A stretch of 64,000 bases of DNA, from assembly GCF_905475395.1 (NCBI RefSeq), contig NC_058337.1, positions 86,918,368 through 86,982,367 on the forward strand, given 5' to 3'. The notes under the pieces were generated by a model. That model saw only the letters and a program-made list of their open reading frames with translations. It was not told the origin of the DNA and ran no database searches. The DNA comes from Chrysoperla carnea (lineage: Eukaryota; Arthropoda; Insecta; Neuroptera; Chrysopidae). The first letter of the stretch is position 1, and every line of letters starts with the position of its first letter. The translations under genes and the position numbers were made by a program. This document shows, one piece after another, positions 43,928-63,320 of this stretch.

Positions 43928-46900
43928 TTATGAACTCTGTTCTTCTGAACGATGTTCTGGTTCCCACATGAAAATAAAATTTCCGGAAGCACTTAAAATT
44001 TCATTTCGCTTAGGATGTCCATGCAACGAATATATTACGTTATATGATCTAAAAATTAAAATAAATATAATTTCTAAAATTTCAATCGATTGCCTTTTTG
44101 CGAGTAATTTCAGCCAAACTGTGATTTTACAATTCGGAACAAATATTTACCTATTTTCAATTTTAGGATGAATAAGCTTGTTGGTAACAACTCCCGAAAC
44201 TAAATCCCAAACATAAATAGCGCTATCAATTGATCCAGACATTACATGAGTATCGTTTTGACTAACAATAGATTCAATTGCAAAATCCTTCATTGTATGT
44301 CCTTTGAACCTAAAAATAATAATCCTTTTTTTAATCATATAAATGTTATACGTTAATTTGTGAAATTATCAATTGGGGAGATTCAATTAGAGCTGGTAAA
44401 AATTTATGCGCGTTTAACGAGCCATATCTCCTAAATAAATAACAATTTAAGCGGAATTATTCTTTGAAGTGCTTCGTTTTACTCTGTGCCTTTTATTTTT
44501 GTCTAAAAAATATAAATGATACTTAATTACAGTCACAACAGAGTTAAGATTTACATTTAGAAGAAATGCATCATTAAATGCCTAGAAAATTTTGCCAAGC
44601 TCTAGTAAAATCGTCCATTGCCGGAAATAGGACATCTCATTCTCCCCCACTACTACCACTACCACCACCTGGCTTCTAAAGTTATTCAAGTTAGAAAGAT
44701 AGCAACGCTGACTAGCGCTTTTTCTAGACAAAAGAACAAGCTTGGCAATAGTAATATCAGTTTTTATGAAAAATAATTTTTGCGCTCGGTACTAATTTAA
44801 TTTGCATACTCTTTCAACACTCGGCATAAAGCGGTAGGGAATGATAGTAACTTTTGAGCTACATTTTCAAAATGTTAAAAGCCTATACTTTCGAATGGGT
44901 TGTATTTTTCGTGGAGATGTAGGTATCTGAAATTACATCAATTTTGATAAGTCTATCTGGACGAAATTCTTTGAATGTATTTTTGAAAAATAACAAGGAT
45001 AGACAACTATTCCAAGGTCATAGCAGACAAGAAATTGTTCCATAGTTATGCTTATGACCTTATGTCACTTTTGAAAGTTTTAAAAAAAAATAATTGATTG
45101 AATAAAAATAAGATCAAAATAACCAATATTTCAAGTCCAAAATTAAGTTAAATGTTCAATAGACTATAAAATTCTTACTCTCCGAGCATTTCACCAGTAT
45201 CTTTATCCATCAATCGTAGAGTATCATCGACACAACTTGCTAAAATACACTGACCATCTTTTGTAAAATTTACGGAAGTAATAGGCTCTGGAATACAATC
45301 ATTAAAAATTAAATCAGATATATTCAGTATCAATTATTTAATTTTATTACCTCCAAGAAAATCACATATAATTTTTCCGACTCGAATATCATATATTCGA
45401 ATTTTGCAATCAACAGATCCCGTCAAAATTTCATGATCAGATATTTGAATCGACGTTATACAATCTTTAGCTTCCTTTAAAACTTGAAATGGACCATTAT
45501 TTCGTGATTTTAAATCCCAACACATTACTGTATTATCTTTACTACCTGACACCGCAATGGATGAATCTTCATTAAACTAAAAAATATATGTCACGTTAGA
45601 AAATTCGGAGCACGGTGTAGATGAAGATGCTTAAATATATTTGTCATGAATGGAAGCTTTATGTACTTTCTTTCTCATAATATCAGGTGTGTAACTAGGG
45701 CGTGGCAAAGGAGGCACCCTTCACCGGTGCAATAGAAATTGAGGCGCAAAGCAAAAAGTTTGTTATATACATAAAACAAAAATATAGTAAAGAATAAAGT
45801 AAAAGGAATTAATTTACAATATTATAAATATCATAATTTTGTGATAAAATTAAATTTTTTGAATTCTGAGGACGTCATAAAGTTAAAAAATTAAATTTTT
45901 TTGATAACACAGGCAAATTTGGTCCGATTTTATTAGAATTTTTTTTGAAACTCACTAATTTTGGGTCATTCTTTTCAGCTATGATGCAAGTTTTTCTCTA
46001 GCTATCACCTATGTGTAATTCCGGAATCAGAGCTCCACATTCTTGAAACCTATTAGAGCTAGGTTAATTTTGATCACAAATTTCAAAAATATAACCCAAA
46101 TTTGATAGGATTACATACTTGGTTTATCAAAATTGGATAAAATTTGAATTTGATGGAGCAAAATTAATTTTTTTGGATTTTGATGACGTCATCAAGTTAA
46201 AAAATTCGATTTTTTTGATAATACAAACAAATTTGATCCGATCTTATTAGAATTTTTTTTGAAACCCACTAATTTTGGGTCATTCTTTTCAGCTGTGATG
46301 TTAGTTTTTCGTTAGTCATCACTTATGTGCTTAACTCCGGGATCAGGACACTGAATTCTTGTAACCTATTAGAGCTAGGTTAATTTTGATCATAAATTTG
46401 AAAAGTATAACCAAAATTTACTAAGATTACATACATAGTTTACAAAAATTGCCAAAATGGTACTTCTTGATACATTTTAATGAAAAGTGAATATACTAAA
46501 AATAATAATTACAATTTTAATCCAATTTTGTTTGTATTATTTACTTTATTTATTATCAACAAAATTTTGAATTTGAGATTAATCTATTCCTTATGCAAAA
46601 TACCCTAGTATCATTTAGGACAGTAATGAGTTCCTTAAAAATATGTTTTGCTCGGAAACATAGAGAGAAATCAATACTTTAATTTAATACTCTATCATTT
46701 GAATAAATTAAAAAAAGTTTATCAATTAAATGTACAGACTCTTTAAGATATAATGACCCTAGTAAAATAATAAGTGTTCCATATTATTTTATATCCTCTC
46801 AAGTTAATGCTTTTTAATTAAAAAGTTTTAAAATACACACCTTAACACATTTAACTGCACTAGCATGGCCTCGGAAACGTCTTATTGGTTGCCCTGTTGT

Positions 46901-48205: not shown

Positions 48206-49950
48206 ATTTCAAAATTATTTATCAAATTCTTAACCTAAAAAAGTGACATATCGTCTAATGTCAATTGGTGGGACAGCTGACAGATACTGAATATTTTATA
48301 GGTTTGTTCATTAGGTTTGTTATGGCGCTTAGAAAGTTATGCGTTAGGTTCGTTATAGCGCTTGATTATTTAAACCATGAAGCATAATGAATATGCATAA
48401 ATTTATCTATGGCATAAATACATTAAATCGAGAAAAATAGTGACACACAAAACTTTATGGCGGTTTCGGAGAGGAGTGGGGTTGAAGTAAATCGGGAAAA
48501 AAAGTGGACCCTAACCGAATTAACTCAGGTGCAATTTTCTTGTTACAACATGTACTTTTATGGAAAAAATCATGGAGGTTATAAAGAAGGAGAACGATCG
48601 CTACGTGCTAAAGCATTAGCGCACCTGTCCCTGAAAATTTGTAGAATTTATAGTTCATTTTTCAGCCACCAACCGCGCTGTCGTCGGTAAGTAGTATATT
48701 AGCGCACAACAGCCCGCATTTAATGAGACAACTTAGCGATCCCAGCGCCTCACTTATTTTGTCCATATTTTGGGGACAATATTTTCTATTGCGATCGTTT
48801 TCCTTCTTTATAACCTTCATGGAAAAAATAGTGGTAGACGCCGCAGACTGGCAGTATGACGGTAATTTGAAATCAAGTGTGGGATTATTCCCGAAAACTG
48901 CTGTAAAATAAAGTAAAACTAAAAAAATTTCTGACGCTTGCCAAATAACTTCCATAACGGCCGTGCAACCGTTACAAAATACTACACAGACATAATAGTA
49001 AATATTTAAAAAATATAATAAAATAAATATTTTACAGAGAAATGTCACCATAAGCGAATTGAATTTAACTAACATAAAAATTTCACCATCTTGACCCTTT
49101 TGTATTCCAGATTATTTTTTCCCCGGAGATGGATAATTTTAGTGTTTTAGGTACCAATTAATAAGCCCCTAGAAACATTATAATTAATAAAAAATAGTGA
49201 GGTTTTTACTACTCAACTGACAAAAATTACAAATTTTCTTCCTAGGCTGGAGCCTTCATCGCTAAAATTAAATTGGTCCTCCACTTAAAAGGCCTCACGG
49301 TGTTTAAGGTTCAAAAAAAGTGAATACAACACTAAGATTAAGTGAATAATGTTCAACATAGCCAATAGTACTGGTCGTTGTAGATGAAGACGACTAATTG
49401 TAATACTAGTTAGTCGTTAAAACCGATATGTCGTAAAATTCAATGTACTATCAAATAGAACTACCATTTAATCTTAATCAGTGATTTTGATTGTATAAGG
49501 TATTTTGAAATGTGGCAGGAAATGAAAACGTTTCGAACGAAAATCAAGAAATATATGATATTTGAACAGTTTAGCAATGAATAATCCTCGTAAAGCAGAT
49601 ATGAATCGATCGCATAAACATTGCTATTTAAAGCTGTGGGCTTTTTTCTTTGGAGATATTATAAGGCAAAGGTCTACGGTAATGACTTTCAATCCAGAGA
49701 TGATCTAAAACTAAATATCATTGATGCCTTTCAAGACAAAATTGTAAAAATGTGTAGAAATAACATATTAAAAAGCACACCAAAAATGTCGCAACATTAA
49801 AAAAAAACATCGTAAAAGGAACAAAAATAAAAGATAAATGCTATTTTGAATATTAAATATTATATTTTTCTAAATCTAAAGTACATTTTAAAAAGTCACA
49901 AATGTAAAGTCGTATAAACTTTGAGAATACGCTTAAACATTAAAAAATAA
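48206..49950. other. Intergenic region between kinesin-5 and WDR83
   Basis: This holds the WDR83 upstream region. At about 48,310-48,370 the phrase 'ttaggttcgttatagcgctt' occurs twice in similar form (direct repeat of about 46 bp). At about 48,556-48,600 and 48,785-48,830 a 45-bp inverted repeat contains 'ggttataaagaagga'. A 137-codon minus frame (48,662-49,075) overlaps one arm. It shows no recognised domain or splice support and is not called as a gene. Confidence 0.5.
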
Positions 49951-49957
49951 TAATATT

Positions 49958-49963
49958 TTTATT
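49958..49963 (-). terminator. Poly(A) signal of kinesin-5
   Basis: AATAAA on the minus strand, about 35 bases beyond the kinesin-5 stop codon. Confidence 0.6.
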
Positions 49964-49996
49964 TTACAATATTTATAAAATTTAATAAAGTTCATT

Positions 49997-52900
49997 TTAA
50001 TTAACCAAGGGACCAAGTACTTCTCTTCTGTTAGTTACTGCACGTGATCCTGGATTATTATCCGAAACTCTTTGAAGCTGTGTTGCTGATTTTGATTTGA
50101 GTAATGAAACATTAGCGTTTTCTTTGTTTGATAACTGAAATAATAAAAAAAAAAAACAATCTATTTTAAAAATTTATTGAATCGCATCAAAATTTTGAAA
50201 AACTATGTTTAAATATCAAACAATCTAATGAATTCAACATTTCAAGAATTCTCAGAGAATTACAGGAAAAATATTCATTCAACTGGAGTGATGAATGAAA
50301 TAATTCAGAAACAGAAACACGAATTGGATGAAATGATGTAGAAAATTAATTCGATGAAATAATTAAATGAAAATCTTGAAAAACAAACAGTTCATGTATA
50401 TGAAACATCTGAAAACATGAATCAACTTTAAGAAAATAGTTGCTGCGATTAATTTTAAACATGTTTAGTCATTCTCGGTCTTACCCTGGTGAACAAAAAT
50501 TTGAAGAAAGTATAAGTCTTAAGAATTCTGAATAACTCTGAATTTCTCAACGTTTTTGGACTGTCTAATTCAAAGTTATCCAGACTTATTAAGTCTGATT
50601 TAGACAGTCCAAAAACATTAAAAAATTCAGAGTTCCTAAGACTTTTTAAGACTTATTCTTTCTTCAAATATTTTTTCCACCAGAATAGATCTTTAGGCCT
50701 TGGTGTTTGCCAGACATCAACGTACTCGTATTATGCCATTGACACATCTCTAGAAATACTTGCGACGAAAGATAGGGGGCAAACAAAACTAAACAGGATT
50801 GACATTCAGTAATAATATTAGTTAACTTACCCTGTGACTACTGGGTGGATTGGGTGTAGCAAAATCTGCTTTACACCTCTCTTCTCTTGTGTTACATAAA
50901 TCATTTGTAGACGATGCTTTAACCAATCCGACAGTTTCAACAGACCCCAAACAATTCAAATCCTCTTCGGCGGAGATATTTGAGTTAGATTCAGCAATTC
51001 CATTCACAAGCGCATCACTTGACTGCAAATTATCAGCTAAACGTCGTCTTCTAAAGCGTTCCAAAATCACTTGCCGTGGTGCTGTAGCTGCTAAGTATCT
51101 TGGATATGGTATAAAATCTTTACGGATCGGTGTATTTCCCGTTGGTTTTGTACCGTCAAAAATAATATCTTCTGTTAAAAATCGTTCAACTTCAATTCTA
51201 CGATCATTCACATCGGAACAAATTTTTTGCTCAAAGTTTACATTTTCTTCTTTTAAATTGCTCATATTTGAATCGCATGATAATTTCACTTGTTCATGAT
51301 AATTTTCGAACGTGATTTGTAAATTGTTTGAATTCGTTTTTAAATTTGATAGATTTTCATCGATTTTAATTGTTAAATTTTTCATGAGTTCATGTTTTTC
51401 AATATTGCGTTTTGATTTATCGATAATTTTTGTATGCGCTGTTTGAATATTTGAATCGAAAACTTTTCTTAGTTCGTCAATTTCAGCTGTCAGATGTTCT
51501 TGAAGCTCTTTACAATTATCATGTAAACCACATTCTTTTAGAACTAGATCATCCGATACCCTTACAATATGCATTTCATTTAATTTTAATCGTTCATTTG
51601 AATCAAAAATCGCTTGTTTTCCAATATTTTTCACATCGTCGCAACCATTTTCATAAAGTCGAATCATATTTTCAGATGTTTCATGTACATTAGCTGTTTG
51701 TTTTTCAAGATTTTCATTAAATTCTTTCATCGAATTGATTTTCTGCATCATTTCATCCAATTCGTGTTTCTGTTTCTGAATGATTTCATTCATCACTGCA
51801 GTTGAATGAATATTTTTCCCATAAAGCTCTGAGAATTTCTCAAATGTTGACTTCATAGATTGCTCGATATTTAAACATAATTTATCAAAATTTTGATGCG
51901 ATTCAATGAATTTCAAAATTAATTGTTGTTGATTATCACGAATTTGTTCAACATTTTTATCAGATTTTGCGATTGATGTTTCTAATAAAGGAAGAATTTT
52001 CGTGTTTAACAATTCGTTTACAATTGAAAAACTATGAGTAAATTTATCCTGAACAATCTTTTTCAGCTCATCGGAGCACCTTTCATCCATTTCAATATTT
52101 CCGTTTAACGTTTCACGTAAATCGTTTTGTAATTTCGTTCCGAGTGAAAATAAATCGTTTAAAATTTGTTTAATAGCAATCATTTCGAATTTATTAGAGT
52201 TGATGTGTTCAACGTTCTGTGAGACATGAGTCTCGATAAAGTTATTTTGTGTTTGAAAAAATGTTTGAATTTTTTGTTGCATTTCACACAGATTTGAATT
52301 GAAAACATTTTGGAATCGTTCTCTTTCCGTTATATTTTTCGACTCAATCATTTTCACGCGTTCCAATTTATCATGCAATTTATTTTCATCTTTTGTAACC
52401 GTTTCGACAACGTTTAAGAGTGTACGAGCCTGATCTCCTAATTTCGCTTCAGTTTCACTGTATTTTTCAACTAAATGCGCTTCCTCCTCTGAAATCGCTG
52501 TCACTTCTTTTAATTTTTTTTCGGTCTCAAGTAAGTTTACCTTAGTTTCAGTTAGCTCTAATTTAAGCTGTGTACAGATATCGTTTGCTTTTTCTAATTC
52601 ATCACTGATTGCCCGATGTTCGTTAATTTTTTCAGTTAACTCTCGTGCGTAATTTTCGATTTCGTTAACCATATGATTATAATTGTCTGGTGCTAAATAA
52701 ATTCCGTTACATGATCGACTTGCAGTTAGGTCACGTCGTAATCGTTCAATTTCCTCCGTATATTCCTGAATGAAATAAAATTCTAAATAAAGTTACAAAA
52801 TACAAGTTTTTATTACTTTTGAATTTCTTCAGAAATAAAATGGGCAATTGTTATGACAAAAATTAGTTTTCAATGCAAATATTATCAAATCAAAATTTGA

Positions 52901-55567
52901 AATTTCAAGTTCTAAATTTTCTATATTAAAATACAAGTTCCGAACTTGTAATTTAAGTTGGTTTTTAAGATGATTTATTATTTAATAAATATTATAATTT
53001 TTCTTGGGTACTTGGACAATTAAAATAATTTAGATGTTTATTTCAGTAATTGAAGAACAAAACTCATTACATTTAATTCAAATTTAAGAAAAGAAAATAA
53101 AAAATATCGAGCTAAATTTTTGAAGTTGGAAATAAAGGCCAACGAAACGTTGCAAAATTTTAAACGTAACACCTAGATTATTTTAATTGTTCAAGCACCC
53201 AAGAAAAATTATAATATTTATTGTTTACAGCATGGATGAAACTCAAAATATGAATTTATTATTTAAATAGAGTTTAATTTTAAACCAATTTTCTTCTATT
53301 CAATTTGCCATTTTTTTCTGAAAAAAATTTAGGAATAGGGAAAAGTGAATATTCCAGTCTTACCTTAAGTAAAGCAGATTTCGTGAATTTTTGATTAATT
53401 TCTGGTCGATTTGTAATATTTTTGGCACGATGAGCATATTCAAGAGTGCTTAACGTCTCTTCTAAATTACATGTGGCTGGCGATACCGTAGCAATGATAG
53501 ACGTTTTTGTTCGCCCACCAAGAGAATCTTGTAAAAGTCGAGTTAATTTGGACTCTCGATACGGCACATGTGGAGCTCTTTCGACTAAAGCCGTAATTAC
53601 ACGCCCCAGTGTTAATAAAGATTGATTGATATTGCCAGCTTCACGAGCACGCTTGTCAACGGCTCCTGATCGACCAATGTTTTCACTGCCAGCTAAATCC
53701 ACTAAATTTAATTTTCCGGTTTTTAAAAGGTCTTCACCTTCGTTCGTACTTTCTTTGGTGTGCACAGTTATAGAAAAAACTGTGTGTGATCGACTGCAAA
53801 AAAAAAAACAACATTGGATTTTAGTCATTAGAAAGGTACTACTAACCAATCCATAAATTTGTCTTAGACCCACTTTTTGTTTAGCATTGGGGTAAATAAG
53901 GTGTTGCGGTAGTCAGGTAATAATTTGTATTTTAAGAGTTTCGGGCTAAATTATTGTTTTTTGGATACTAAGTTTTATTCAAATCGAAATCAAAATTGTT
54001 CTGTTTTTGGTGTTTTTAGAGTAATTAAGATTTAAAATTTACAAAAATCTTGTTCATTTAAAAAGAAACATATCGCAATGGTGCGATTTTTGTAATTTTC
54101 TTCTCTATGTTACTGGTGAATTATATTTCTTGATATTTTCCGATTTTGTTGGTTTGTACTTATAAATAATAAGCAGTAACGGAACTAGTACTGAGGGGGC
54201 CTTTTTCAAAATATTGATGCAAATAAAATCAAATAGATTTTATATCGACCGATTTATTAGAGATGAAATTTTATTTATAAATCATCTTTGAAATGGAGCA
54301 GGTGTTGGAGGTCCATATCATTTCTACCACAGATATGACGGTTTCTACGCCCCCGGTAATAATTAATTGAGTACTTCAGATAATTCATACCTTGATTGTG
54401 CATTCATTAACGTGCTAGCAGTTTGACGTTTCTCAGAGCCTTTTTGCAAAATCTTGTAAACCTCGTTTTTATTATGAACAATGACTTCTTCCAATCCATG
54501 AACAATGACTGATCCTTTCTTGACATTATCCTCGTAAAGTCGGATTTTAGATGAATCTTCGATTGGCGATAACAAGTCAAATAATTCTTCATTGTAGAGC
54601 TCCAAATATGAGACTCGTACCGTGTGCTCCACTTGTAACAATCTTAATTCATCGAATAGCTGACTTAAAGTACGAGGTATAATACCTGCGTCTGGATCCT
54701 AAATAAAAACGGAAAGCAAATTATAACGATCCTGATGCCCATTTATATTCAGTTTAACTTAAATTCCAGCTTTGACGATTTAAAAAAAAGGTTCCCATGT
54801 ATCCAGTTACATTTTTATCAAATATCCTATCATTTCGATCAAAATTTGGCTTGTTTCTCCGCGAATGGTAAAGATATCAAAATATACTTACATTTTGCCA
54901 TGACCCATTAGTTGTTGTTTTTTCCGAACCCCCCGCCATCGTGTAGGTTTTTCCAGTTCCAGTTTGTCCATAAGCGAATACTGTGCAGTTATAACCAGCC
55001 AATACTTCTTGTATTAATGGACTAACAACCACCGAATATAATTCAAGCTATTAAAATTAAAGATCAATTTAGAAAAATACGTTAATTTTTAAACACCAAA
55101 CATACACTGAGTTGAAGATAAATAAGTTATTATCATTGCACAAAATATTTTCAATTTGTGAAAAAGTCTTTTAATTTATAACATCGTATAATGGTCAAAT
55201 TTTTCGTAATCTAGATTCGAAATATTCAGGTAACACACAGAATGAAATAGGTATATATAATAAATATTTGAATTAAAAATAAAAATTACCTGGGTAGATT
55301 TTGGGCCAAATACACGATCAAACGTAAATTTTTTTGATATTGAATGCTGACGAACATTTACTTCCCGATTCGTCGGTATATCGATAACGTTGTGAGATCT
55401 TTGTTCCTTTTCTTGGCTGCTTAGAGGCCTATAATGTTACAAAATTGACAAAAATTAAAGAATATAAAAACAAATTGTATAGTAAAACAAATTTAAAAAA
55501 AAACTAACCGAACTCTTACGAATGATTGAATCTGTTGATTTTGTCTATTTTCTTTTTTACTATTCAT
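49997..55567 (-). CDS. Klp61F: Kinesin-5 (KIF11/Eg5, bipolar mitotic kinesin)
   Basis: Homotetrameric plus-end motor that slides antiparallel spindle microtubules. Seven exons join in phase (minus): 55509-55567, 55290-55428, 54892-55047, 54391-54698, 53364-53793, 50831-52765 and 49997-50134, giving 1054 aa, the family's normal length. The motor occupies about residues 15-350: P-loop GQTGTGKT (93-100), switch I NAQSSRSH (217-224), switch II DLAGSE (253-258), then [11 protein letters not shown] at the neck. Residues from about 365 to 890 are coiled coil, carried mostly by the single 1935-nt exon. The tail has the BimC box with the Cdk1-type site TPIRK (Thr about 909). The last exon begins LSNKENANV, which contains a KEN box, a candidate APC/C degron. 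The start gives [11 protein letters not shown], with a second KEN triplet at residues 5-7. The final intron is unusual (see the antisense copy). Confidence 0.97.
50158..50452 (+). pseudogene. Inverted partial copy of the kinesin-5 coiled-coil exon inside the gene's last intron
   Basis: The plus strand here reads as a diverged copy of the kinesin-5 coding sequence at 51,633-51,928, which lies on the minus strand. By eye the two are about 85% identical over roughly 295 bp with one small indel. Preserved peptide pieces include [28 protein letters not shown] and ETSENM. In-frame TAG (50,339-50,341) and TAA codons rule out coding. It starts 23 bp from the final acceptor and occupies much of the 696-nt intron. 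In kinesin-5 pre-mRNA it is antisense to the exon. Confidence 0.93.
50486..50692. repeat. Hairpin MITE-like palindrome in the last kinesin-5 intron
   Basis: The left arm ('ctggtgaacaaaaatttgaa', 'agtataagtcttaagaattc', 'tttttggactgtcta') pairs with the right arm ('tagacagtccaaaaac', 'aagacttattctttcttcaa', 'ttccaccag') across a short loop near 50,590. It is imperfect, with arms of about 100 bp. It sits between the antisense exon copy and the large exon. Confidence 0.82.
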
Positions 55568-57247
55568 TTTGTCTTCTTCAAATAATTAATTATTACAAAA
55601 TTTTATTATTTCAGTTCAGGTTCTTTGAGTTAAAACAAACAACAACACACATATAAATATTTTACAGTTAAAAGTTTTGATGATTAAGAAATCACAACTG
55701 TCACCTTTTTTTAAATTTATCCGTTACAACAACATTTAAAAATCAGTTTTTTGAAATATCTATTTATGTTAAAAACTTTTAATTTCAAAATAGTGCTTGT
55801 TTAGAGCACATGCTATAGAAATCCAATAATTTTAAAACTATTTGCACATTAATTATATTCGAAATGTTATTATATTATCTTAATTACTTATCGTTTAATA
55901 ATTAATTTAGGTTGAAATAGTCAAAGTCTTAACATGTACAGCCTAAATATTTTTAACTTTTTGAATAACGCTAATACTGCGCATGTATTTGTTTTCATTA
56001 AAGAGTTTTAATAAGTATAATGCAATAGGGTGAGTTCACTATGCACTCTCAACGTTTAAATTTATGTTCAGTCTTCAGCACAGATTATAATTTTTTTAAA
56101 TTAATAACTATAATCTGTGGTCTTCAGTCCTTTCACATGACGAATAAATGGTATGGAGTTGATCGAGTTTTTATTTTTTTATAACTTTTTTTATTATACT
56201 GTAGAGTTATTCGTGTGGATCTCAAGGGTCGCATCAGATCCTACTTACGGCTTGTTGCATACTGTATTGGAATTATTAAGGAATTACGATTTCATGGTGA
56301 CGCTTGACGCCAGTTTTTGGCGTAAAATTTGATCACATGGTATGATCAAAGAGTTTACATACATAGAGATCACGAGGGCCCGAAACTTGCGATATGCGTA
56401 GCGAGAGAGAAGACTGCCAGTGAGTTCCCCTGTATCCCTGTCCATTACATACAAAAAATAATACAAATATAATAGCAGGCACAAAATCTCTATGCATCAT
56501 ATAAATATGACAAGGACACAGAGGAACAAACAGGCAACTGCTCTCTTGTTCATCATATCGCACCCACTTCCAGACTAGCAGATCCCTCGCGTCCTCTATA
56601 TGTATTACCTCTATGGGTATAATTTTGATCAGAGTGCCATCTAGATAAAAAGTAGCGATAAAGCTAAAAATAATTTTGCTTTGCTTCTGCTTCAGTTAAT
56701 TAACGCTAAGATAGCATTCTGATCGAAATTATACTATGTGATCAAATTGGAAAGCTAGCGTCAAAGGACACCATGAAATCGCACCTTCACAGTTAATTTT
56801 CCGTTCTGCTCAAAGATGTGAAATTTCATAGATACATAACATAGAAAACTTTCTTGGGGCGCCTGAAATGTTCAGATCTTTTCAAATCAAACTTTTTGTA
56901 ATCAAAATAGATTCAGAAATCGGCAAAACAATGAATCATAAGCAAAAAATGCTCTGTAGTAAAAAAAAGATGAAGTTTTATTAAAGATTTACATTATTCA
57001 CAATTGAAAATGTCGATATTTCTATAACTCGAAAATAAAACTCCTCGAAAAGGTTTTACGCCATGTGATTCTTTTTTGTACATTTATTTCAAAATCTTAC
57101 TCAACTGGATAGATCCAAACCTGCCTTTGTTGAAATGTTCTTCATTTGTTCAAAAAATTGATCAAGTAGGTTTCATTATGATATATAAATAAACAATTAT
57201 TAAATATTAAAATTTTACTTTAAATTATTCGAAATAGTATTAGCAAA
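55568..57247. promoter_or_regulatory. Divergent intergenic region between kinesin-5 and the membrane-protein gene
   Basis: The region must contain both promoters, as the genes point away from each other. Specific core elements could not be assigned with confidence. A 500-bp MITE (56,286-56,783) occupies the middle. A small palindrome with 'cacagattata' and 'tataatctgtg' lies at about 56,080-56,123. Confidence 0.5.
56286..56783. mobile_element. MITE with imperfect terminal inverted repeats
   Basis: The left end 'cgatttcatggtgacgcttg' pairs with the right end '(ctagcgtcaaagga)caccatgaaatcg'. The similarity continues inward over about 50 bp ('aatttgatcacat(g/a)gtat' on both sides). The interior is relatively GC-rich and encodes no transposase; open frames of 66 and 76 codons on the minus strand are incidental. 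Confidence 0.72.
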
Positions 57248-62428: not shown

Positions 62429-62566
62429 TGAAAAAAAAATTCAAACTTGTAAATACAGATATTTTTTGTTCAACATAGAACATAAAGAAATTCCAAGAAA
62501 GAAAGGTTGAAATATTTCATTAAATTTATATAAGGATGAATTTTTGCTGACTTCGAGTTGAGACAT

Positions 62567-62672
62567 AGTTATTGAAATAAATACCACGAAAAGTACTTTT
62601 TTATTTCGAGTATCGTACGATACTCGAAATAAAATTTTATTTAGAAGATTGTGATATTTATTTCAATAACTA
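62567..62672. repeat. Palindrome in the TTC19 3' flank
   Basis: 'agttattgaaataaata' at the left pairs with 'tatttatttcaataact' at the right. The centre holds an exact palindrome built on TTTCGAGTATCG/CGATACTCGAAA (about 62,603-62,630). The left arm contains AATAAA at 62,576-62,581, the nearest candidate poly(A) signal for TTC19. Confidence 0.85.
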
Positions 62673-63320
62673 TTTCATTAAGTTGTCTAGAGCACAAAAT
62701 CAATAATTTCTATTGCCGCCTCCACACTATCGCGAAGTAGCACGAAGTCGGGCGAGGAATGATATTACGGAGATGATAATAGTGGTGTCTCGACTGTCCT
62801 CGCCTTGCCTTATACAACTTCGCTAAAAAAGTGTTTTTTGTACACAACTCAAAGGTAATACGAGGCATGCTTGTGAGTCTTATTTCCACATCCTCGTGAT
62901 TACTTGTATAGTTCAGTAGCTGTTGTGTATTGTATACAATTTTTGTTCAAAAGTTTTGTTATAAACGCACAGAGAGCTACCGCAACTGCAGCGTAACTAC
63001 GTACCAAAAACATATGTTTCCCTTGAGGCAACAAGGAAATATGTAACATGCTACACGTGTTAATTTTGTTGCTAGATGTTTCCGTTCGACTTCTTCCTTA
63101 AGTAATGAACAAATCTAGTCATTCAATATTATTTAAAAACCAATCCTATATGAGAAACGATAAAAAACGGCATTATCATTGTCGATAATTTATCGTTGAT
63201 CTTCTTTTGACCAATTCTCGGTAAAATTTCAATGTGGAATAATCAATCTACACTTTACCCTGTTTTAAAAATAAAGTAATTTGAAATTTTTGAACAAAAT
63301 TTGCGATACTAAAAATTGCA

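Follow-up and report, generated by a model that had tools for sequence, protein, structure and literature searches.

An inverted copy of a coding exon in the last intron of two kinesin-5 genes of Chrysoperla carnea

The last intron of a kinesin-5 gene, located in the window of 64,000 nucleotides analyzed here (contig C1; positions are those of the window unless a contig or locus is named), contains a backwards copy of almost 300 bp of the large coiled-coil exon of the same gene, and the same arrangement was identified in a paralogous gene on contig C5. We consider it fairly probable that a single, old inverted duplication was kept by both paralogs and that gene conversion between exon and copy has taken place since.

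The kinesin-5 gene in the window and its intronic exon copy

The gene is encoded on the minus strand. Its designation as kinesin-5 in the preliminary description is well founded, as the Pfam domains Kinesin and Microtub_bind were matched in the motor exons and in the large exon, respectively, and KIF11/Eg5 chains were the top PDB matches of one motor exon, with Drosophila Klp61F lower in the ranking. Based on the Pfam and KIF11 matches, the C-terminal part of the motor is encoded by an exon at 53365-53795 (approximate boundaries). The large stalk/tail exon at 50831-52765 is an open coiled-coil exon of 645 codons, in phase 0 at both ends and with the Microtub_bind domain near its end. It is followed by the last intron at 50135-50830 (696 nt, GT..AG) and by the last coding exon at 49997-50134, which according to translation and reading of the sequence encodes LSNKENANV...GPLVN and the stop codon. 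The LSNKEN motif of this last exon contains a KEN box. The intron preceding the large exon is ~600 nt long in this gene and ~80 nt in the C5 paralog, and in the window gene it contains a 55-nt inverted repeat (52984-53038 and 53168-53222; 93% complementary). About 6 kb past the end of the window, at C1:86988731-86989747, a full-length kinesin motor match was found in a single open frame of 719 aa; apparently this is another kinesin, with a motor without introns, near the kinesin-5 gene.

The noncoding intronic copy, delimited by local alignment and blastn, extends over 50152-50449 and is sense on the plus strand and antisense in the kinesin-5 transcript. Its source, here called the exon arm, lies at 51635-51930 (minus strand) in the large exon, as placed by local alignment and reading frame. 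In the local alignment of 50152-50449 (plus strand) with the reverse complement of 51930-51635, 263 of the 296 aligned bases are identical (88.9%), with two 1-base gaps, and the score of 417 compares with a maximum of 42 among 200 dinucleotide shuffles of the intron; the antisense copy reported in the preliminary description is thus real. With blastn the identity was 88.3% over 298 columns, and a repeat finder returned the pair in two pieces, 222 nt at 89% and 66 nt at 88%. The coordinates first given for the copy were right to a few bases and the loop of ~1.2 kb agrees with the ~1.19 kb that separate copy and exon arm, while the identity of "about 85%" by eye was slightly low. The inverted duplicate indeed lies inside the transcription unit of its own target. 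The copy starts 17 nt from the 3′ end of the intron.

The 33 differences between the copy and the exon in the window gene fall on codon positions 1, 2, and 3 in 14, 7, and 12 cases, and comprise 9 synonymous and 20 nonsynonymous changes as well as 4 stops (one TAG and three TAA in the frame matched to the exon). From exon to copy, 18 differences are from G/C to A/T and 6 are in the opposite direction. Based on the spread over codon positions, the stops, and the excess of changes from G/C to A/T, this copy is free of coding constraint and its composition has drifted to A+T; the differences look like drift. Searches for relatives of the inverted copy elsewhere, in collections without insect genomes, gave no pattern matches in viral contigs and nine in genome contigs, none of which was confirmed, and a distant blastn search against phages gave no match.

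Local inverted repeats are not unusual in this material, as four pairs with a spacer of 0-6000 passed the thresholds in the window, the kinesin-5 pair among them, and one such place was found in control loci. The control comprised 49 of 61 loci (182,657 bases; mostly 3-4 kb long, some overlapping), the 12 loci at the two kinesin-5 genes being excluded, and the place was seen in two overlapping loci on contig C3. The three other pairs in the window are 155-230 bp long and 80-84% identical (4017-4241/4357-4583, 10767-10926/15251-15405, and 23243-23434/26938-27131). On C3, locus L045 has a 323-bp inverted repeat at 212-534 and 938-1260 (C3:38669081-38669403 and C3:38669807-38670129), 98.5% identical and with a spacer of 404 bp, in the gap separating two kinesin-domain matches of another gene; this may be a mobile element bounded by long terminal repeats.

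The paralogous gene and gene conversion between exon and copy

The genome assembly, taken to be inChrCarn1.1 of Chrysoperla carnea (559,487,470 bases, 337 contigs), was searched. With the intronic copy as query we obtained four matches (all four candidates were scored), two in the window gene and two in the C5 paralog, and with the 645-aa exon four matches among 12 candidates, corresponding to two open exons and two broken copies. The open exons share 88% amino acid identity, and the copies contain four (C1) and one (C5) stops. In the C5 gene the backwards exon copy is likewise found in the last intron (524 nt, GT..AG), adjoining the acceptor; it starts 23 nt from the 3′ end of the intron, and an identity of 92.8% over 276 columns was found between the two arms, the copy at C5:9950542-9950817 and the exon arm at C5:9951844-9952139. 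The C1 and C5 genes align over window positions 49536-55864, and since the introns align too, the whole gene was duplicated at the DNA level. With a dS of 0.266 and a dN of 0.059 between the large exons (the C5 exon ends were set 3 bases off at both ends, in frame, which does not materially affect the totals), both kinesin-5 genes appear to be constrained. The boundaries of the two copies coincide within ~2 bases at the right end and within ~20 bases at the left end, and for this reason a single inverted duplication preceding the gene duplication is the most likely origin. Two repeats were observed in the C5 locus L005. Directly 3′ of the paralog (L005 3711-3797) is an 87-bp palindrome, 96.6% self-complementary, with a relative at window 62563-62676 (78-83%), and window 45939-46181 and 46253-46450 each match, in reverse orientation, an intronic stretch of the C5 gene (L005 7116-7360) at 68-69%, which is probably a dispersed repeat.

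Trees and site patterns were obtained from an alignment of four sequences, the two exons and the two copies, without an outgroup. At the nine sites that divide the sequences two against two, the copy groups with its own exon seven times and with the other copy twice, and the third grouping does not occur. All seven own-gene sites are located at 50316-50402, while the two copy-copy sites are at 50169 and 50203. When the alignment was divided at breakpoints picked after these sites had been seen, the AU test rejected both the shared-copy tree and the third tree in the right half, 50301-50440 (p=0.005 each). In the left half, 50165-50300, which has none of the seven own-gene sites, the shared-copy tree was weakly the best (AU 0.85 vs 0.16 and 0.16). 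For the whole alignment the own-gene tree was best (AU p=0.96), followed by the shared-copy tree (p=0.066) and the third tree (p=0.016). Within 50301-50440 the C5 copy differs from its exon at 3 of 135 positions and the two copies from each other at 19 of 135, so that arms of one locus are more alike than paralogous arms in this tract, which is not the case in the left half. The C5 copy and exon share 89 consecutive identical bases. Their longest run of agreement covers 13 variable columns (permutation p=0.008 per pair, ~0.05 after correction for six pairs), and an agreement run of the C1 copy with the C5 exon gave p=0.035, to which we attach no meaning. Under a single origin without exchange, 5000 simulations in each of three settings never produced seven own-gene sites. 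From these patterns we infer gene conversion between exon and copy, at least in the C5 gene.

The divergence of the copies points in the same direction. They differ from each other at 39 of 269 positions, compared with 36 of 129 in the rest of the last intron (Fisher p=0.002) and 44 of 188 in a second intron (p=0.019); two further introns, which can be aligned only poorly, differ at 207 of 446 and 86 of 227. On the other hand, divergence as low as that of the copies was seen in two short noncoding stretches that had been selected from BLAST matches, one intronic (7/51) and one in the 3′ flank (6/57). The left half of the copies is equally little diverged (16/131). Repeated exchange with a slowly changing exon would explain the low divergence between the copies, the low divergence between copy and exon, and the small number of shared-copy sites. 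An increase in amino acid change in the exon arm, as could result from copy-to-exon conversion, was not seen, its 16 nonsynonymous differences between the paralogs in 98 codons being reached or surpassed in 175 of 545 stretches of that length.

The course of events that would account for the observed arrangements, boundaries, and site patterns starts in an ancestral lacewing kinesin-5 gene, where ~296 bp of the large coiled-coil exon would have been copied backwards once, next to the acceptor of the last intron. The entire gene would then have been duplicated onto another chromosome along with its introns, and both daughters would have retained the backwards copy. Free of coding constraint, the copies would have decayed, while gene conversion between the inverted arms, which is clear in the C5 gene and probably took place repeatedly, would have kept these ~89% (C1) and ~93% (C5) alike. 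The pre-mRNA of each gene would thereby be able to fold into a long stem of exon and intron that reaches close to the 3′ splice site. The neutral inverted duplication to which the preliminary description fell back is nearer the mark than a functional element, but is incomplete, since the copy is common to two paralogs and has apparently exchanged sequence with the exon.

Independent inverted duplications that arose separately in the two paralogs, after the gene duplication, would also give the preference for the own-gene tree in the whole alignment, where the shared-copy tree narrowly escapes rejection; this counts against a single origin followed by conversion. They are favored by this best tree, which places each copy with its own exon, and by a copy-exon divergence below that expected from neutral drift since the gene duplication in the first simulation setting. 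They would, however, have had to hit the same intron position and both exon ends within ~20 bases, and in the left half own-gene sites are missing, both of the informative sites there uniting the copies; we regard them as unlikely. A much smaller probability is given to the exon fragment having been brought in by a mobile element. The element that could be considered is a palindromic MITE-like repeat at 50486-50683 in the same intron, 36 bp from the copy, with 81% self-match, CCCTGGTGG-like ends, and many genomic relatives (at least 91 matches in the best 40 of 715 candidates, with many of the sites hit on both strands). This palindrome looks like a dispersed MITE family separate from the exon copy. 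It is absent from the last intron of the C5 paralog, which has the copy nevertheless. Transposon capture was rejected on these grounds and because the exon fragment is not contained in mobile-element copies elsewhere, all four of its candidates in the genome being at the two kinesin-5 genes. A processed retrocopy was likewise not supported; the A-run (plus strand) at the 5′ end of the sense copy is the polypyrimidine tract of the intron read on the other strand. The least probable explanation, bordering on negligible, is an assembly artefact or a retained haplotype. Inverted repeats may in principle be misassembled, but the arrangement is present on two chromosomes, the large exons differ by 8.9% without a stop in either, and the assembly is described as built from PacBio long reads and Hi-C with haplotypic duplications removed (PMC10116181).

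Predicted pairing of the two arms and its possible effects

Judging from the gene structure, both arms should be part of one primary transcript. When the pre-mRNA segments were folded in silico, 268 (C1) and 266 (C5) inter-arm pairs were predicted, and the exon-intron stem proposed in the preliminary description is thus possible. The predicted C1 stem ends ~21 nt before the AG, and the C5 stem likewise spans the region upstream of the acceptor. Branch points are usually located in the stretch just upstream of the acceptor, and a stem covering it could therefore hinder splicing. By translation, a protein made from a transcript retaining the last intron would end after VS (C1) or VSLLLL (C5) and lose the KEN exon. 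As antisense to the exon of its own gene and to that of the paralog, the copy gave predicted duplex energies of −330.8 to −371.9 kcal/mol in the four combinations, compared with −58.7 to −79.2 for five shuffles. The low folding energy predicted for the isolated intron (z −8.06) stems largely from the neighboring palindrome and not from the exon copy, which has its partner outside the folded stretch. Domain matches in the genome included the Dicer dimerisation domain (two) and A_deamin (seven exon matches at two loci; a match that does not separate ADAR from ADAT1).

On another reading, which follows the preliminary description, the stem would be functional and kept by selection, through siRNA, ADAR editing, or concealment of the last 3′ splice site, with autoregulation or a KEN-less isoform as the outcome. 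In its favor, the arms and their position are retained in both paralogs, the predicted pairing covers the sequence immediately before the acceptor, intron retention would affect the protein as described, and matches to the Dicer and A_deamin domains are present. In addition, both arms have changed together between the genes at seven sites, which selection for pairing would also be expected to produce; these joint changes are, however, clustered like a conversion tract. No clear bias toward pairing was found among the polarised transitions, 11 of which keep a G:U pair and 7 of which break pairing, although the raw counts lean toward G:U-keeping changes (10 vs 6 in C1 and 7 vs 1 in C5; 17/24, P ~0.03 one-sided by hand). 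The low synonymous change of the exon arm was not significant (P=0.12), and the C1 copy has accumulated its 33 differences, stops included. We regard a functional stem kept by selection, and with it the autoregulation suggested in the preliminary description, as unlikely, to about the same degree as the independent duplications. More tentative again is a self-antisense kinesin-5, an old hairpin refreshed by conversion and retained through the gene duplication that might limit the mRNA in cis or in trans via siRNA or editing, or might act as a KEN switch by intron retention. If this were true, it would be a hairpin RNA with the coding exon itself as one arm.

Comparison with known systems and significance

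Closest in working principle are Drosophila hairpin RNA (hpRNA) loci, which contain inverted partial copies of their targets, as in hp58 with its fragment of a neighbor's exon, and the parallel drawn in the preliminary description holds to the extent that this source describes them (PMC10317233). The kinesin-5 arrangement resembles such loci (D. simulans hp58, ballchen-adjacent hairpin; PMC10317233), and the Nmy and Tmy hpRNAs (PMC12224907), in being an inverted partial copy of a protein-coding gene that is complementary to the gene. It has a long inverted repeat in one transcription unit and complementarity to the target mRNA. The hpRNA loci give rise to hairpin transcripts of their own, which contain both arms, and have demonstrated Dcr-2-dependent siRNAs acting in trans, whereas in kinesin-5 one arm is a coding exon and the other belongs to its own intron. 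Because one arm is the coding exon itself, kinesin-5 has no dedicated hairpin transcript apart from its target mRNA and is not classed as an hpRNA locus.

Exon-intron duplexes at ADAR sites are short structured elements under selection. The predicted kinesin-5 duplex, unlike these, is formed by a 296-bp exon duplicate, but here too an exon pairs with a complementary intron in the pre-mRNA, in silico. In Drosophila para, an exon-intron duplex at an ADAR editing site, for which mle(napts) is reported to disturb splicing, likewise involves an exon pairing with an intron and may block splice-site access (PMC4710571); in kinesin-5 such pairing is predicted.

Inverted arms homogenised by conversion are also described for sex-chromosome palindromes (PMC8981503, PMC3723533). 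Those arms are far longer and >99% alike, compared with 296 bp and ~89-93% between an exon and its own intron in kinesin-5, and the kinesin-5 chromosomes are not sex chromosomes according to the published table. Long inverted repeats involving coding sequence are found in the mitochondrial palindromes of nematomorphs, for which template switching and conversion are discussed as causes (PMC6649704). There both arms are coding, near-adjacent, and mitochondrial, while the kinesin-5 pair is nuclear with one arm intronic. Arabidopsis MIRNA genes are reported to have arisen from inverted duplication of their targets (Allen 2004). Inverted target duplication would be the raw material for small RNAs in both cases; the MIRNA genes are separate plant loci, and the kinesin-5 copy lies inside its own gene. 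Among titles and openings of abstracts, in a collection of partial coverage that holds few subscription journals, we found no paper describing a gene with a backwards copy of one of its exons in an intron, nor, within the same scope, one in which such a copy and its exon evolve in concert in a pair of paralogs.

The origin of hairpin RNAs is described as an open puzzle (PMC10317233). A plausible first step toward one is a gene in which a reversed segment of an exon sits in an intron of the same gene. In kinesin-5 this arrangement has apparently persisted through a gene duplication, while exchange with an exon under constraint kept the arms similar. Should conversion be able to proceed in the copy-to-exon direction, the copy in the intron would also store changes on which a conserved mitotic motor could draw. 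With two paralogs, one of which has a perfect stretch of 89 bases, effects on siRNA, editing, and splicing are directly testable in a commercially reared insect. To a specialist the finding would be neat and testable rather than startling, and should siRNA, editing, and splicing effects all prove absent, the two genes would still be a clear small example of concerted evolution between an exon and an intron.
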